Positions 40,272-46,510 of a stretch of 64,000 bases of DNA are shown here, in pieces. The position numbers and the translations under genes were made by a program. The first letter of the stretch is position 1, and the number at the start of each line of letters is the position of its first letter. This DNA is from Pedobacter arcticus A12 (GTDB taxonomy: Bacteria > Bacteroidota > Bacteroidia > Sphingobacteriales > Sphingobacteriaceae), in the NCBI RefSeq assembly GCF_000302595.1, contig NZ_JH947125.1, forward strand, positions 446,884 to 510,883, given 5' to 3'. The notes beneath the pieces were generated by a model. That model was not told the origin of the DNA. It did not search any database and saw nothing but the letters and a program-made list of their open reading frames with translations.

Positions 40272-42086
40272 TTACAGCGCATCTCCCCTTAAATTTCTAA
40301 ATCTTTTGCGGGCCTCTATCAAATATAAACTCCCAGGGTATTGATTCATCAATTGCTGGTAATACTTTTTAGCAGCATTTAAATCCTGTAAATTCTCTTC
40401 TTCTAACACCGCAAGTTTAAAAAGCGCATCGTCTGCCCAAATGCTGTTGGGATAATTTTTTACAATGGTACTAAGGTTATTTTGTGCAGTTTGATATTGT
40501 TGTTGTTTAATGTAAATGTTTGATTTTAGCATCAGCACATCATCAAACAAGCTAGATTGCGGGTATAACGCAGTTAAACTATCCAATGTTTTAATAGCTT
40601 CGCTAGGTTTGTTTTTTAGCTGTAACAAATCGGCTTTTGCATACATTTTTAAAGCATTCCCGGTACTGTCAACAGCTAAATCATCCTGAATGAGTAGGCT
40701 TAGATCAAGCGCATCGTTAGCAATCAATTGCGATGTGGAAGCTTTTAGCACATCTAACTGCGCTTTTGCCCAGCTAAAATCTCCGTTGTAAAAAGAAAGT
40801 TTAGCATTTTTAAACTTCGCTTCCTGCCCAATTGGGTGGTCTTTAAAATTTTTTTCTACCTGGCCGTATAAAAGCGCAGCATCCCAAGGTTGGTTATTTA
40901 AAATATAAATAGTTGCCAAATCTAGCTTAAGCTGCGCAGCAATATCCGGATTTATATTGGGTAGGCTTATTGCTTTTTCCAGTAATAAGGTAGCCTCTTG
41001 TGTTTTAGTGCCGTAAAAAGCTTTTAAATTAGCTAAGGCTCTAATTGCAAAAATGGTTTGTGGGTTTTCGCCGTATTCTTTCAAAAGTAGTTCGTAATCG
41101 GTACTTAACTGCTCTATTTGTTGTTGCGAATAGGTGCCGTCAATTACCTGTTGGTTTTTAAGCTGTAACATCGCCACTTTAGATGCGATATAATAAGGCG
41201 TGTTTTGGCCTTTTGTTAAAATATATTGGTAAGCTTTTTCGGCAGTAGCATAAGCGTTGTTTTCTATCAAAATATTTGCAAAGTTATAAAGGGAAGCCCC
41301 ATCATCCTGCGTTCTTTTATCTAAGGCAATCAGCTGTACAAGAGCTAAATCATATTGTTTTTGCTGTAGATAAGCCCAAGCCAGCAAGTTTATAAAAGTG
41401 GTGTTCTGGGGGTCCTTTTGTATCTTTTTCAGCAATAAAGACTTTAATGTTGCGTAATCTTCATCACGTTCGTAGGTTCTGGCCAGGTTGTTTTTTGCAT
41501 TCGCCAAAAAGCTTGGTTGATAAACTAAGGTGTTTAAAACCTCATCGGTAAGTTCTGCTTTTTGTTTTTTAAACCGATATAAATTAATAAGCTCGAAGCT
41601 AAAAGCATACTCATCTTTTAATAATTTTCTGCCCGTTAAAAAACATTTAATAGCATAATCGTAATTTCCGGTGCTGTAAAAGGAATTGGCAATGCCGCTT
41701 ATTGCAAATTCATCTTTGGGCATTTTATTTAAAACATCATCAAAAGTTTTGTCGGCCTTGTCAACTTCGCCTTTTTCTAAATACAATTGCCCCAAATTAA
41801 TGCCGTATTTGGAGTTGATTTTTAACCTTTTAGTAACTATTTTTTCGGCCTCGCTGTAGTTTTTGAGTTTTAGAAGTGTGTTAAAGTAAGCTTCAAAATA
41901 AAAGTCATTTTCGGTATTGTGCTGATAAAATTTTTGATAGATGGCTAAAGATTTATCATATTCGCCATTGTTATAAAATTGACGAGCCAACTCCATATCA
42001 TTTACCGAATTTTGGCTTTTTGCATAATTAAAGCATGCAAGCAAAAGAAGTACAGTGCTTAAAATCTTAAAAGGTTTACACATCAA
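40272..42086 (-). CDS. exported TPR-repeat protein
   Basis: 604 residues with a signal peptide (cleavage near residue 25, AKSQN) and about a dozen tetratricopeptide repeats over the whole length, such as ARQFYNNGEYDKSLAIYQKF, AISGIANSFYSTGNYDYAIK and ADDALFKLAVLEEENLQD. The final repeats (VKNYPNSIWADDALFKLA, QYPGSLYLIEARKRFR) resemble BamD- and YbgF-type repeats. It is probably a periplasmic scaffold. The likely operon is TPR, DUF4286, rfbC, rluF. Confidence 0.85.
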   Translation of the reverse strand: MMCKPFKILSTVLLLLACFNYAKSQNSVNDMELARQFYNNGEYDKSLAIYQKFYQHNTENDFYFEAYFNTLLKLKNYSEAEKIVTKRLKINSKYGINLGQLYLEKGEVDKADKTFDDVLNKMPKDEFAISGIANSFYSTGNYDYAIKCFLTGRKLLKDEYAFSFELINLYRFKKQKAELTDEVLNTLVYQPSFLANAKNNLARTYERDEDYATLKSLLLKKIQKDPQNTTFINLLAWAYLQQKQYDLALVQLIALDKRTQDDGASLYNFANILIENNAYATAEKAYQYILTKGQNTPYYIASKVAMLQLKNQQVIDGTYSQQQIEQLSTDYELLLKEYGENPQTIFAIRALANLKAFYGTKTQEATLLLEKAISLPNINPDIAAQLKLDLATIYILNNQPWDAALLYGQVEKNFKDHPIGQEAKFKNAKLSFYNGDFSWAKAQLDVLKASTSQLIANDALDLSLLIQDDLAVDSTGNALKMYAKADLLQLKNKPSEAIKTLDSLTALYPQSSLFDDVLMLKSNIYIKQQQYQTAQNNLSTIVKNYPNSIWADDALFKLAVLEEENLQDLNAAKKYYQQLMNQYPGSLYLIEARKRFRNLRGDAL

Positions 42087-42265
42087 TGCTAAAATAGAAA
42101 TTTCTTGTGGCTATTGTTAAAATCAGGTTTATAAATAGTGTATTCTAAATGTTACTGCCGTTATAAACCTTACTCGTGTTTTAATACCTAATTTGGTTTT
42201 GTGTTAAACTCACGTTTGCAAACTTTTTTCTGGATGTTGTATAAATAAAGTAACAAAAAGATTTA

Positions 42266-44143
42266 ATGCCCTATTGGATTAAAAAATATTACCTTATAAC
42301 TGTTCTATTGATAGCTGGATGTTCTACACATCCAGTGGTAGAGGTGTTGCCGGTAGATGCCTTTTTTAAAAACGCCCAACAATTTAATTATCGTATTTCG
42401 CCTAACGGTAAAGCCCTTGCTTTTTTACAGACTTATAAAGGTAAAATGAATGTTTTTGTACGTTCAATTGATGATACCACTAGATTACAGTTAACAAAGT
42501 TCGAGGATTCATCTATCCGAGATTTTAGCTGGGTGGGTAATAATAGGTTGTTTTGTGAAAAAGAAAGAGACACTAACAATAGGTGTGGTGCTTTCCTGAT
42601 CAATAAAGATGGAACAAATTATACTTCGATTAAGAGTAGAGCTGGTACAAAACTAAGTATCCTTGATAATAGCGTTCACGCTAGCCAGGTATTAATTACT
42701 AGTAACGAGCGGGACGAATCGTTTTTTGATGTTTACCACTTAAATATAGAAAATGGTTCGAAAAAGCTGTTCGTAGAGAATCCCGGCAATATTTTACTTT
42801 GGTTTGCAGATGAAAAGGGAGATGTTAATTTAGGTGCCGGTAGTGATGGAGTAAACGAAACGATTTATTACAGGGAAAACATCGAAGAAAAATTCAAAGC
42901 TATATTCAGTAATAATTTTAAGAGTACCTTAAAACCTTTAGGGTTTACAAAAAACAAGCGATACATTTACGCATTGTCGGATCTTAATCGCGATAAGCTT
43001 GCATTGGTTGAGTTTGACTGTTTAGAAGGTAAAGAGTCGAAGCTGATCTATCAGCATCCAGATGCGGATATCCTCGAAGTTTTGACTTCGGGGTTAAATA
43101 AAGAACCAGCTCTGGTAGCTTATGATTTAGACCGAAGACAAAGGCATTTCCTAAACCAAACGTATAAAGAAATATATGAGGATATCTCGGATAAACTCCC
43201 AAATCAAGAAATAAAAATAATAGATATTTCTGAGCGTAATCTCATTATTAAAGTCTACACGGATAGAAATCCCGGGGCTTTCTATAGCTATAACATTGAA
43301 AAACGAAGTCTTAAAAAATTATCTGAAGTTAATCCTGAAATTGAGCCTGCCAATATGTGTAGCATGCAGGCAATTAGCTATCAAACAAAAGATGGCTTAA
43401 CGATTCATGGGTATTTAACTTTGCCCTTAGGTAAAAAGAAAGAAAATTTGCCTTGCGTAATATTACCGCATCAAGGTCCAAGTCAACGGAATGTCTTTGG
43501 TTTTTTACCAGAGGTGCAGTTTTTGGCCAATAGGGGTTATGCCGTTCTGCAGATGAATTATAGAGGTTCCACCGGTTATGGTAAAAAATTTGAGAATGCC
43601 GGGTTTAAGCAATGGGGTGCTAAAATGCAGGATGATATTTTTGATGGAGTTGCCTGGCTTATAAAAGAGGGTATTGCAAATCCCTCGCAAATAGGAGTTT
43701 TTGGTTATGGTTTTGGGGGTTACGCAGCATTAAACCAAGTTATTAATCATCCTGACACTTATAAGTGTGCTGCTTCTTATTCGGGCTACATTAATTTATT
43801 TACATACATTAAAGGCTATCCAGCACATTTTAAGCCTTACAAGTTAATGTTGAACGAGATGATTGGGGATCCAGAAACAGATGTTGATTATCTTAAAAGT
43901 GCGTCGCCGGTTTTTCAGATCGAAAAAATAAAAACACCCATTTTGATTGCACAAGGCGGAAAAGACGCTAAAGTAAACGTTAATGAAACAAATCAATTTG
44001 TAAAAGAACTTCGTAAAAAAAATATTCCTATTAAGTACATCTTAAATGAGAATGAGACACAGTTATTTAAAAATGTAGACAATAAAATCAGATTTTATAC
44101 GGAGCTTGTAGACTTTTTAGACCAACATCTTAAACCACATTAA
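42266..44143 (+). CDS. S9-family peptidase-like lipoprotein lacking the catalytic Ser and His
   Basis: 625 residues. Lipobox Cys at 19 (LLIAGCSTHP). An N-terminal beta-propeller (about 40-360) precedes an alpha/beta-hydrolase domain (about 365-622) as in prolyl oligopeptidase-like enzymes: GLTIHGYLTLPLG, VLQMNYRGSTGYGKKF, PILIAQGGKDAKVNVNE. The nucleophile elbow is GYGFGG (480-485) where active enzymes have GxSxGG, so Ser is Gly482; the position of the catalytic His is Gln599 (NENETQLF in place of DEGHGF). Asp567 remains. The protein is therefore predicted to be non-catalytic. It ends 6 bp before a histidine kinase gene, suggesting a periplasmic ligand-binding or sensing role for that kinase. 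Confidence 0.85.
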   Translation: MPYWIKKYYLITVLLIAGCSTHPVVEVLPVDAFFKNAQQFNYRISPNGKALAFLQTYKGKMNVFVRSIDDTTRLQLTKFEDSSIRDFSWVGNNRLFCEKERDTNNRCGAFLINKDGTNYTSIKSRAGTKLSILDNSVHASQVLITSNERDESFFDVYHLNIENGSKKLFVENPGNILLWFADEKGDVNLGAGSDGVNETIYYRENIEEKFKAIFSNNFKSTLKPLGFTKNKRYIYALSDLNRDKLALVEFDCLEGKESKLIYQHPDADILEVLTSGLNKEPALVAYDLDRRQRHFLNQTYKEIYEDISDKLPNQEIKIIDISERNLIIKVYTDRNPGAFYSYNIEKRSLKKLSEVNPEIEPANMCSMQAISYQTKDGLTIHGYLTLPLGKKKENLPCVILPHQGPSQRNVFGFLPEVQFLANRGYAVLQMNYRGSTGYGKKFENAGFKQWGAKMQDDIFDGVAWLIKEGIANPSQIGVFGYGFGGYAALNQVINHPDTYKCAASYSGYINLFTYIKGYPAHFKPYKLMLNEMIGDPETDVDYLKSASPVFQIEKIKTPILIAQGGKDAKVNVNETNQFVKELRKKNIPIKYILNENETQLFKNVDNKIRFYTELVDFLDQHLKPH

Positions 44144-44149
44144 CGTTAA

Positions 44150-45820
44150 ATGAAAACTAGAATCTTAAGCTATCGTAAAAACTTTACGCTAATTGCTTCT
44201 TTTGTAGTTTTGATTTCTAGCCTGTTAATTATTGCATTATACGTAAGTTATAAATTAACAAAAAAGGTAGTAGAAAACGAATTCTCGGCCGCTAAGGTTG
44301 ATGTGTTGGAGAAAACAGTATTGCCTTACAATGTTTTTTTTCAAAATAAGGTTTCGGAAATATCTTTTTACCAAGGTTTTTTAGATTCTACATCGGCAAC
44401 ACAATACGCAAATTCTGTACTTAATAAATACCCTTTTGTAGAACGGATCCTTTTTTACGATGCGCAGATTAGCAATAGAGACGTGGAAGATGGTTTGCGT
44501 ACATTAAATTTTTCATTGGGTATAAAAGGGCTTTATCAGTACGGTTTAAACGTTAATAAAGACTCGACAGTTCTTTTTTCTGCAGATAAACCAGGGTCAC
44601 TTTCTTTATCAAATGGCGATGAATTTAATAAGATCGGATTAAAATTAGCCAGTTACTTATCTAACGTTGACACCACTAAACTGCTTTCTAACGATCAGAT
44701 ATTTAATATTTTTTATAACATCTCCCACAATAAGATAACCTACATGAACGTGTTGAGAAGGGAAGACATTAAAGTGTACAAGGACCTGATGTTTAAAAAA
44801 ATGCCTCCTTCTCCGTTTTATGAACAGGATATTTTTTCTTTTGAGCTCAACCCATATAAATTAGTTGTTAAAAATACTTATCCTCAGCTATATCAAAATG
44901 TAGTTATCAAGCCATTATCTTTCGAAACCATTTCAGATAAACCTAATCTAGTTACTACGGAAATAGCTTTACCATTAGCGTTTTCAAACTTCAAACTTTA
45001 TTTAAGTAGCGATAGAAAATTTCTGGATAAGGAAATACGACGCAGGTTTTTGCCCGTGGGTTTAGGTATATTTGCTGTTTATGGCATTTTATTAATACTT
45101 ATTTTTTTGATCAGCAGAAACTTAAAAGTTAATCAGAAGCTTTTTAGCCTACAGTATGATTTTATAAATAACTTTACTCATGAGTTTAAAACACCCGTAG
45201 CGGTTATAAAAATTGCCGGTAACAATATTTTAAATGCGAAAGATTTATCTGATCTAGAACGAAAGCGGTACGGTAAAATCTTAGATGAAGAAGCCGATAA
45301 ACTGAACGATTTGATGAACAAACTTTTGTCGTTTACACAAATTGAAAACAGATCCATAAAAGTAAAAAACGAAGAAATAAACGTAGAAGTTTTTTCGCAG
45401 AATATTATCGACGCTTTTCAGTTAAAACACCCCGAGTACGATATACAATTAAACATTAAGGGATTAACTGTTTTTCAGAGTGACCCAGTTTTACTGAGTA
45501 GTATTTTTTATAATTTGATAGAGAATGCCTATAAATATGCAAATGCCGATAATAAATTTCTTAAAATATCGATAGTAAAGGATAAAAAAAATATTGTTTT
45601 TTCTTTTGAGGATAAGGGCATTGGTATTGATGCAAGCGAGTTAGTACACATCTTTAAGAAATTTTATAGGATACAAAGCCGTTACAACCAGCAAGGTAGT
45701 GTTGGATTAGGTTTGGCTTTTTGTAAGGAACTTGTTACTTTTATGAACGGAGAAATCCACGTAAAAAGCAAACCCGGTAAAGGATCAGTGTTTGTAGTCA
45801 CTTTGCCCCTTGATAAATAA
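44150..45820 (+). CDS. sensor histidine kinase
   Basis: 556 residues: membrane helix near 15-35, a periplasmic domain of about 260 residues with no family I recognise, a second helix near 300-322, and then directly a HisKA domain with phospho-acceptor His344 (NFTHEFKTPVAVIK), with no clear HAMP domain between. The HATPase domain has N-box LIENAYKYANADNKFL, FSFEDKGIGIDASEL and SVGLGLAFCKELVTFM. It should phosphorylate the response regulator encoded 3 bp downstream. The unusual upstream partner is the dead S9 lipoprotein. Confidence 0.93.
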   Translation: MKTRILSYRKNFTLIASFVVLISSLLIIALYVSYKLTKKVVENEFSAAKVDVLEKTVLPYNVFFQNKVSEISFYQGFLDSTSATQYANSVLNKYPFVERILFYDAQISNRDVEDGLRTLNFSLGIKGLYQYGLNVNKDSTVLFSADKPGSLSLSNGDEFNKIGLKLASYLSNVDTTKLLSNDQIFNIFYNISHNKITYMNVLRREDIKVYKDLMFKKMPPSPFYEQDIFSFELNPYKLVVKNTYPQLYQNVVIKPLSFETISDKPNLVTTEIALPLAFSNFKLYLSSDRKFLDKEIRRRFLPVGLGIFAVYGILLILIFLISRNLKVNQKLFSLQYDFINNFTHEFKTPVAVIKIAGNNILNAKDLSDLERKRYGKILDEEADKLNDLMNKLLSFTQIENRSIKVKNEEINVEVFSQNIIDAFQLKHPEYDIQLNIKGLTVFQSDPVLLSSIFYNLIENAYKYANADNKFLKISIVKDKKNIVFSFEDKGIGIDASELVHIFKKFYRIQSRYNQQGSVGLGLAFCKELVTFMNGEIHVKSKPGKGSVFVVTLPLDK

Positions 45821-45823
45821 TAT

Positions 45824-46510
45824 ATGCAAAAAGATATAAAAGTAGCAATTATAGAAGACGACGAAAATCTGCGGTTTTTGGTAAGTCACCGTTTAGAAAA
45901 AGAGGGTTACGAAGTTGTACAAACAGCAAATGGTGGCGAAGCCGTTGAACTAATACTCGCTGAACAACCAGAGATTGTGCTTTTAGACTGGATGTTGCCC
46001 GAAAAAGAAGGTTCGGAAATATGTACAAGCTTAAGGTCAAAAGGTTTTGAAAACGTAATTATTATGATGTCTGCAAAATCTCAGGATATCGATAAAATAG
46101 ACGCTTTTCAATTTGGCGTTTCCGACTATGTAAGCAAGCCTTTTAATATGGATGTATTGGTTGCAATGATTGATAGCAAGGTAAAGTACGTTTTACAAGG
46201 CAAAACTGATAATAACAGGTTTGGCGATATGGAACACCACCCGAACACCCATTCCCTGTTGAAAAATCATAGAAAAATTGAATTAACCATATTAGAAAAC
46301 CGGATTTTACTCTATTTCTTAAACCACAGAAACGCCGTAATTAGCAGAGATGATCTGATGATGGAAGTTTGGGGTTACAACTCAGATGTAAATACGCGTA
46401 CTTTAGATATGCATATTGTAAGGTTGCGTAAAAAAATAGAAACCAACCCAGATCGTCCGGATTTTTTACAAACGGTTAGGGGAGTGGGATACCGCTTCAA
46501 TGATCAGTAA
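45824..46510 (+). CDS. OmpR-family response regulator
   Basis: 228 residues. The receiver domain (1-120) has the acidic pocket IIEDDEN, phospho-acceptor Asp55 in IVLLDWMLPEKEG, and the conserved Lys in VSKPFNMD. The C-terminal winged helix ends with TRTLDMHIVRLRKKIE and FLQTVRGVGYRF. It pairs with the kinase gene 3 bp upstream. Target genes are unknown. Confidence 0.95.
   Translation: MQKDIKVAIIEDDENLRFLVSHRLEKEGYEVVQTANGGEAVELILAEQPEIVLLDWMLPEKEGSEICTSLRSKGFENVIIMMSAKSQDIDKIDAFQFGVSDYVSKPFNMDVLVAMIDSKVKYVLQGKTDNNRFGDMEHHPNTHSLLKNHRKIELTILENRILLYFLNHRNAVISRDDLMMEVWGYNSDVNTRTLDMHIVRLRKKIETNPDRPDFLQTVRGVGYRFNDQ

Follow-up and report, generated by a model that had tools for sequence, protein, structure and literature searches.

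The window, the whole 64,000-nucleotide stretch of Pedobacter arcticus A12 DNA that was analysed, contains three closely spaced genes on one strand. They encode a lipoprotein of the S9 (prolyl-oligopeptidase) family (here S9), a sensor histidine kinase (HK) and a response regulator (RR). The features of the locus are:

40272..42086, minus strand: gene of a TPR-repeat protein, a divergent conserved neighbour of S9 (101/121 loci, counting those in which the TPR gene was found or the upstream sequence was long enough)
42140..42155, plus strand: conserved 16-bp box GTATTCTAAATGTTAC, a candidate operator (GTA-N8-GT[TG]AC in 107/145 upstream regions)
42189..42196, plus strand: TAATTTGG, a -7-like promoter element 33 bp 3′ of the box
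42266..44143, plus strand: S9-family lipoprotein with catalytic residues lost (625 aa; PF00326, 138.9 bits)
42320..42322, plus strand: codon of the lipobox Cys19 (Cys in 143/145 orthologs)
43709..43711, plus strand: codon of Gly482, at the catalytic Ser position (orthologs G 99, S 36, R 7, E 2)
43964..43966, plus strand: codon of Asp567, the retained catalytic Asp (Asp in 142/144)
44060..44062, plus strand: codon of Gln599, at the catalytic His position (His in 44/145 orthologs)
44150..45820, plus strand: sensor histidine kinase without HAMP, with a family-specific periplasmic domain (556 aa; HisKA and HATPase_c)
44258..45049, plus strand: periplasmic sensor domain of HK, residues 37-300, without a Pfam or PDB sequence match
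45824..46510, plus strand: OmpR/PhoB-type response regulator (228 aa; Response_reg and Trans_reg_C)

The intergenic gaps are 6 bp between S9 and HK, as in an earlier note on this DNA, and 3 bp between HK and RR. The TPR protein has a signal-peptide-like start and divergently flanks S9 in most loci (HK in the S9-less genus g11, described below). It may be a further part of the S9-HK-RR system.

S9 matches Pfam PF00326 well above the cutoff of 22.6 bits, and its closest solved relative is the aminoacyl peptidase 5l8s (E 2.6e-47; residues 30-622 aligned). Both results place the protein in the S9 fold, a propeller with an S9 hydrolase domain. The Ser-Asp-His triad of an active S9 peptidase is, however, incomplete, the three positions being occupied by Gly482, Asp567 and Gln599. 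These assignments are correct, as the motifs of S9 and 5l8s align as GYGFGG/GGSYGG, GGKD/GAKD and ENETQLF/EDEGHGF, bearing out the earlier note's claim that Ser482Gly and His599Gln remove the catalytic pair while the fold and Asp567 remain. The protein scored 94.1 bits against the NCBIfam dipeptidyl-peptidase Dpp5 model, below its curated cutoff of 900. That S9 is a lipoprotein was likewise confirmed by the lipobox (LIAGC in the window) and by the near-invariance of its Cys. An acid-rich stretch after the lipobox Cys is the surface-export signal of Bacteroidota. The residues after the Cys of S9 are mostly basic, with three or more acidic residues in only 1 of 140 sequences, so export to the surface by this signal is unlikely, and the lipoprotein is predicted to face the periplasm.

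HK and RR form a two-component system, in which a HisKA/HATPase kinase adjoins a receiver/winged-helix regulator and the phospho-acceptor residues are present. H344 and the other kinase motif residues are invariant in 38 orthologs, and D55 and K105 of RR are unchanged throughout the orthologs. Neither protein scored above cutoff against the NCBIfam equivalogs (MtrAB, PhoBR, RprXY and others); the window proteins reached 189.6 for MtrA (cutoff 300), 164.7 for PnpS (400) and 123.1 for RprY (370). Pfam finds only HisKA and HATPase_c in HK, and neither Pfam nor PDB profile comparison gives a match for the periplasmic domain, in line with the earlier description of a kinase with no clear HAMP and an unnamed periplasmic domain. 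This domain is a loop of ~264 aa bracketed by two hydrophobic segments, which start near residues 12 and 300. An AlphaFold model of it, built from two input sequences, had a pLDDT of 36, too low for use. In a sample of 395 genomes of the class Bacteroidia, the domain was present in 15/15 Sphingobacteriaceae, and the other 380 genomes gave one marginal match only (E 9e-5); judged by these matches, the sensor domain appears to be essentially restricted to Sphingobacteriaceae.

A best-hit search found an S9 ortholog in 190 of 201 Sphingobacteriaceae genomes and in all 18 of the window's genus, and we examined 144 ortholog loci for S9 residues and gene order. In all 140 loci carrying the three genes, these are co-directional in the order S9-HK-RR, and the S9-HK gap has a median of 6 bp; in the other four the sequence ends before the regulator. 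The association is conserved across the family and is therefore not due to chance. It has the arrangement of the LpqB- and QseG-like accessory systems, a lipoprotein gene in a kinase operon, in every one of these 140 loci. HK-RR is an uncharacterised two-component system, near-universal in Sphingobacteriaceae, whose sensor domain is unassigned and which has a candidate operator. S9 itself is full-length in nearly all genomes; the gene of G118 has an in-frame stop, and genus g11 (L300, L303) has cleanly lost S9 while retaining TPR-HK-RR. In L160:1560-5185, S9 is truncated ahead of the hydrolase C-terminus, 500 bp 5′ of an intact kinase.

We then compared the catalytic positions. Among the 144 orthologs, window included, position 482 is Gly in 99, Ser in 36, Arg in 7 and Glu in 2; position 599 is His in 44 and any of more than ten different residues in the rest; and the complete triad is present in 32. 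Gly482 is common to the five-member clade of the window (support 99.9), and Gln599 to the window and L042. In contrast, 39 of 40 S9 relatives from outside the family are intact (GxS[YH]GG, Asp, EGHGF), and neither this type of kinase nor its regulator was found beside any of the 40. The HGGP oxyanion motif is invariant in these relatives; inside the family it degenerates, mostly in dead copies, although it is already changed in several copies that retain the triad. The one exception among the 40 outside relatives, L279:5454-9729, holds a dead S9, with Phe and Arg for Ser and His, beside a divergent, different kinase-regulator pair. On the S9 tree this copy groups inside the Sphingobacteriaceae clade, where inner support is weak; it may have arisen independently or by transfer.

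To count the losses we used an S9 tree built with the catalytic columns omitted and rooted on outside sequences. It requires 10 losses of His, with or without reversals, and 13-14 losses of the triad; Ser requires 17 changes if reversals are allowed and 28 losses if they are not. An independent tree of kinase plus regulator puts the number of changes at 16 for the Ser position and 9 for the His position. When regain costs more than loss, the Sphingobacteriaceae ancestor is best read as triad-intact. At equal costs the ancestral node is a near tie (16 versus 17 for Ser, 12 versus 13 for the triad), so this reading leans also on the intact outgroup. For the few copies with Ser but no His, back-mutation is a better reading than enzyme function. 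In a test of Ser-His coupling, all informative independent pairs went in the same direction but were too few for significance. The earlier note had taken triad-intact orthologs beside the same kinase as the mark of a single-strain mutation. Such orthologs exist (the 32 above), but the triad was lost repeatedly and long ago, and the residue counts together with the losses on the rooted tree rule out a single-strain mutation.

The dN/dS of close pairs of dead S9 is mostly 0.013-0.08, with a maximum of 0.15 (an Arg pair with low dS), comparable to that of triad-bearing pairs (0.017-0.083) and of the neighbouring kinase. S9 is thus needed for something besides its triad. As read from these alignments, the history is one of recurrent conversion of a peptidase to a constrained, presumptive pseudoenzyme tied to one family-specific kinase.

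The region upstream of S9 contains a candidate regulatory site. GTA-N8-GT(T/G)AC occurs at 107/145 loci (1.4 expected); in nearly every case it lies on the same strand, 71-175 bp ahead of where S9 starts. The exact 16-mer has a single copy in each of 13 of the genus's 18 genomes. None of the 40 outside S9 genes has the box in its upstream region, nor does the S9-less g11 carry it. Offsets of a -7-like element, TAnnTT[TG], peak 32-33 bp after the box (38/107 loci), which puts the box at an activator-type position. Our guess is that it is bound by RR. RR residue 187 is Ala in all 23 genomes with a TGAC box and Ser in most of those with the TTAC type, a correlation confounded by descent.

Together, these results make it probable, in our view, that S9 is a non-catalytic accessory of its co-encoded kinase. 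By the base of Sphingobacteriaceae or earlier, the ancestral S9, then an active stand-alone peptidase, would have come to lie upstream of a two-component system; thereafter, selection would have kept its binding function while Ser and His were lost repeatedly. The β-propeller/α/β-hydrolase body may bind a ligand, perhaps a peptide, or an envelope component and modulate the kinase domain held between the two membrane segments, with RR probably feeding back on the operon via the conserved upstream box. The earlier note's interpretation is supported in part: the dead S9 lipoprotein is genuine, is kept by selection and is operon-locked with the kinase family-wide; the S9-kinase contact, the ligand, the direction of control and the binding of RR to the box are what we infer. 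Rates of S9 and the sensor domain covaried at first sight (rho 0.51). The partial rho was, however, 0.34, against 0.47 for the TPR control, and since this neighbour correlates as well or better, we dropped rate covariation as evidence of contact.

We considered whether S9 is no more than a decaying passenger of the operon. The loss in g11, the stop in G118 and the truncation in L160 are what such a gene would produce, but dead-pair dN/dS of 0.013-0.15, equal to that of the kinase, and the nearly universal full-length reading frames make this hardly credible; pseudogene decay is ruled out for most lineages by the dN/dS of the dead pairs. It is also very improbable that S9 merely looks dead while a different set of residues supports catalysis, such as esterase activity or substrate-assisted chemistry. 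Although the fold, including Asp567 (142/144), is conserved and 32 orthologs keep the full triad, the nucleophile is now Gly, Arg or Glu, more than ten different residues stand in for His, and the oxyanion motif has degenerated too.

Two further explanations carry more weight. The function may depend on lineage, S9 being both peptidase and accessory where the triad is present and accessory only where it is absent; this we regard as a tentative possibility, compatible with S9 acting on the kinase as well as with S9 being its output. Triad-bearing copies do lie in the same operon, and fly DPP10 combines the role of a Kv4 subunit with peptidase activity (PMC4873792), whereas the altered HGGP of several triad-bearing copies speaks against it. 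Alternatively, the two-component system may control its own operon, with the lipoprotein as its output, an independent peptide-binder or chaperone of the envelope. The operon might then reflect co-regulation alone. The box upstream of S9 and missing from g11 fits S9 as a regulated gene, the rate test gave no specific S9-sensor link, and the retention of HK-RR in S9-less g11 shows that the kinase is not strictly dependent on S9, which leaves room for this explanation. We nevertheless consider it rather unlikely, because S9 near-universally adjoins one family-specific kinase and no other partner, and its stand-alone relatives elsewhere stayed enzymes. The g11 sensor alters 8 of 27 near-invariant residues, the most of all, with one other genome close behind; Y74, D79, S80 and R203 are lost in g11 and present in its closest S9-bearing relatives. 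That loss of S9 relaxed this sensor is suggestive only, g11 being fast overall and a single event.

The accessory reading has counterparts among known systems. In MtrAB-LpqB of Actinobacteria, a lipoprotein acts together with an OmpR-type regulator and its kinase, although the phylum and the sensor domain are different, and in QseG-QseE-QseF a lipoprotein accessory is co-encoded with a kinase and regulator. LpqB is not known to be a homolog of S9 peptidases, nor is QseG known to be related to peptidases or to descend from an enzyme. LpqB interacts with MtrB and lowers its activity (PMC5845573), and QseG binds and activates QseE (PMC12691602). DPP6 and DPP10 are dead S9 proteins too and assist a membrane signalling protein as accessory subunits, the kind of role proposed here for S9, and DPP10, a Kv4 accessory subunit, has Gly for the catalytic Ser with His kept (PMC4873792, PMC4350108). 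Unlike the window protein, they are single-pass membrane proteins of subfamily S9B and serve an animal ion channel. The stand-alone S9 proteins of other Bacteroidia (closest 36-39% identical to the window protein) belong to the same family with the same arrangement of domains, and many begin with a lipobox-like sequence, but they differ in their intact triad (39/40) and in the absence of such a kinase. Accessory kinase lipoproteins and dead S9 proteins are thus individually known already. The literature searched made no mention of their combination, of family-wide fixation or of repeated catalytic loss in one operon, and nothing relevant came from a search for S9 peptidases with histidine kinases in Bacteroidetes or Pedobacter.

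By analogy with DPP6/DPP10-Kv4, we consider it an even question whether S9-HK-RR constitutes a family-wide three-component signalling system, in which a former S9 peptidase, after a dozen parallel catalytic deaths, would now be a dedicated periplasmic ligand-binding subunit of HK. The operon amounts to a natural replicate experiment, in which catalytic residues have disappeared at least ten times from one orthologous protein that stays in a fixed context under strong constraint. Related species hold active-looking and dead S9 side by side, and the role of a pseudopeptidase for a sensor kinase becomes testable.
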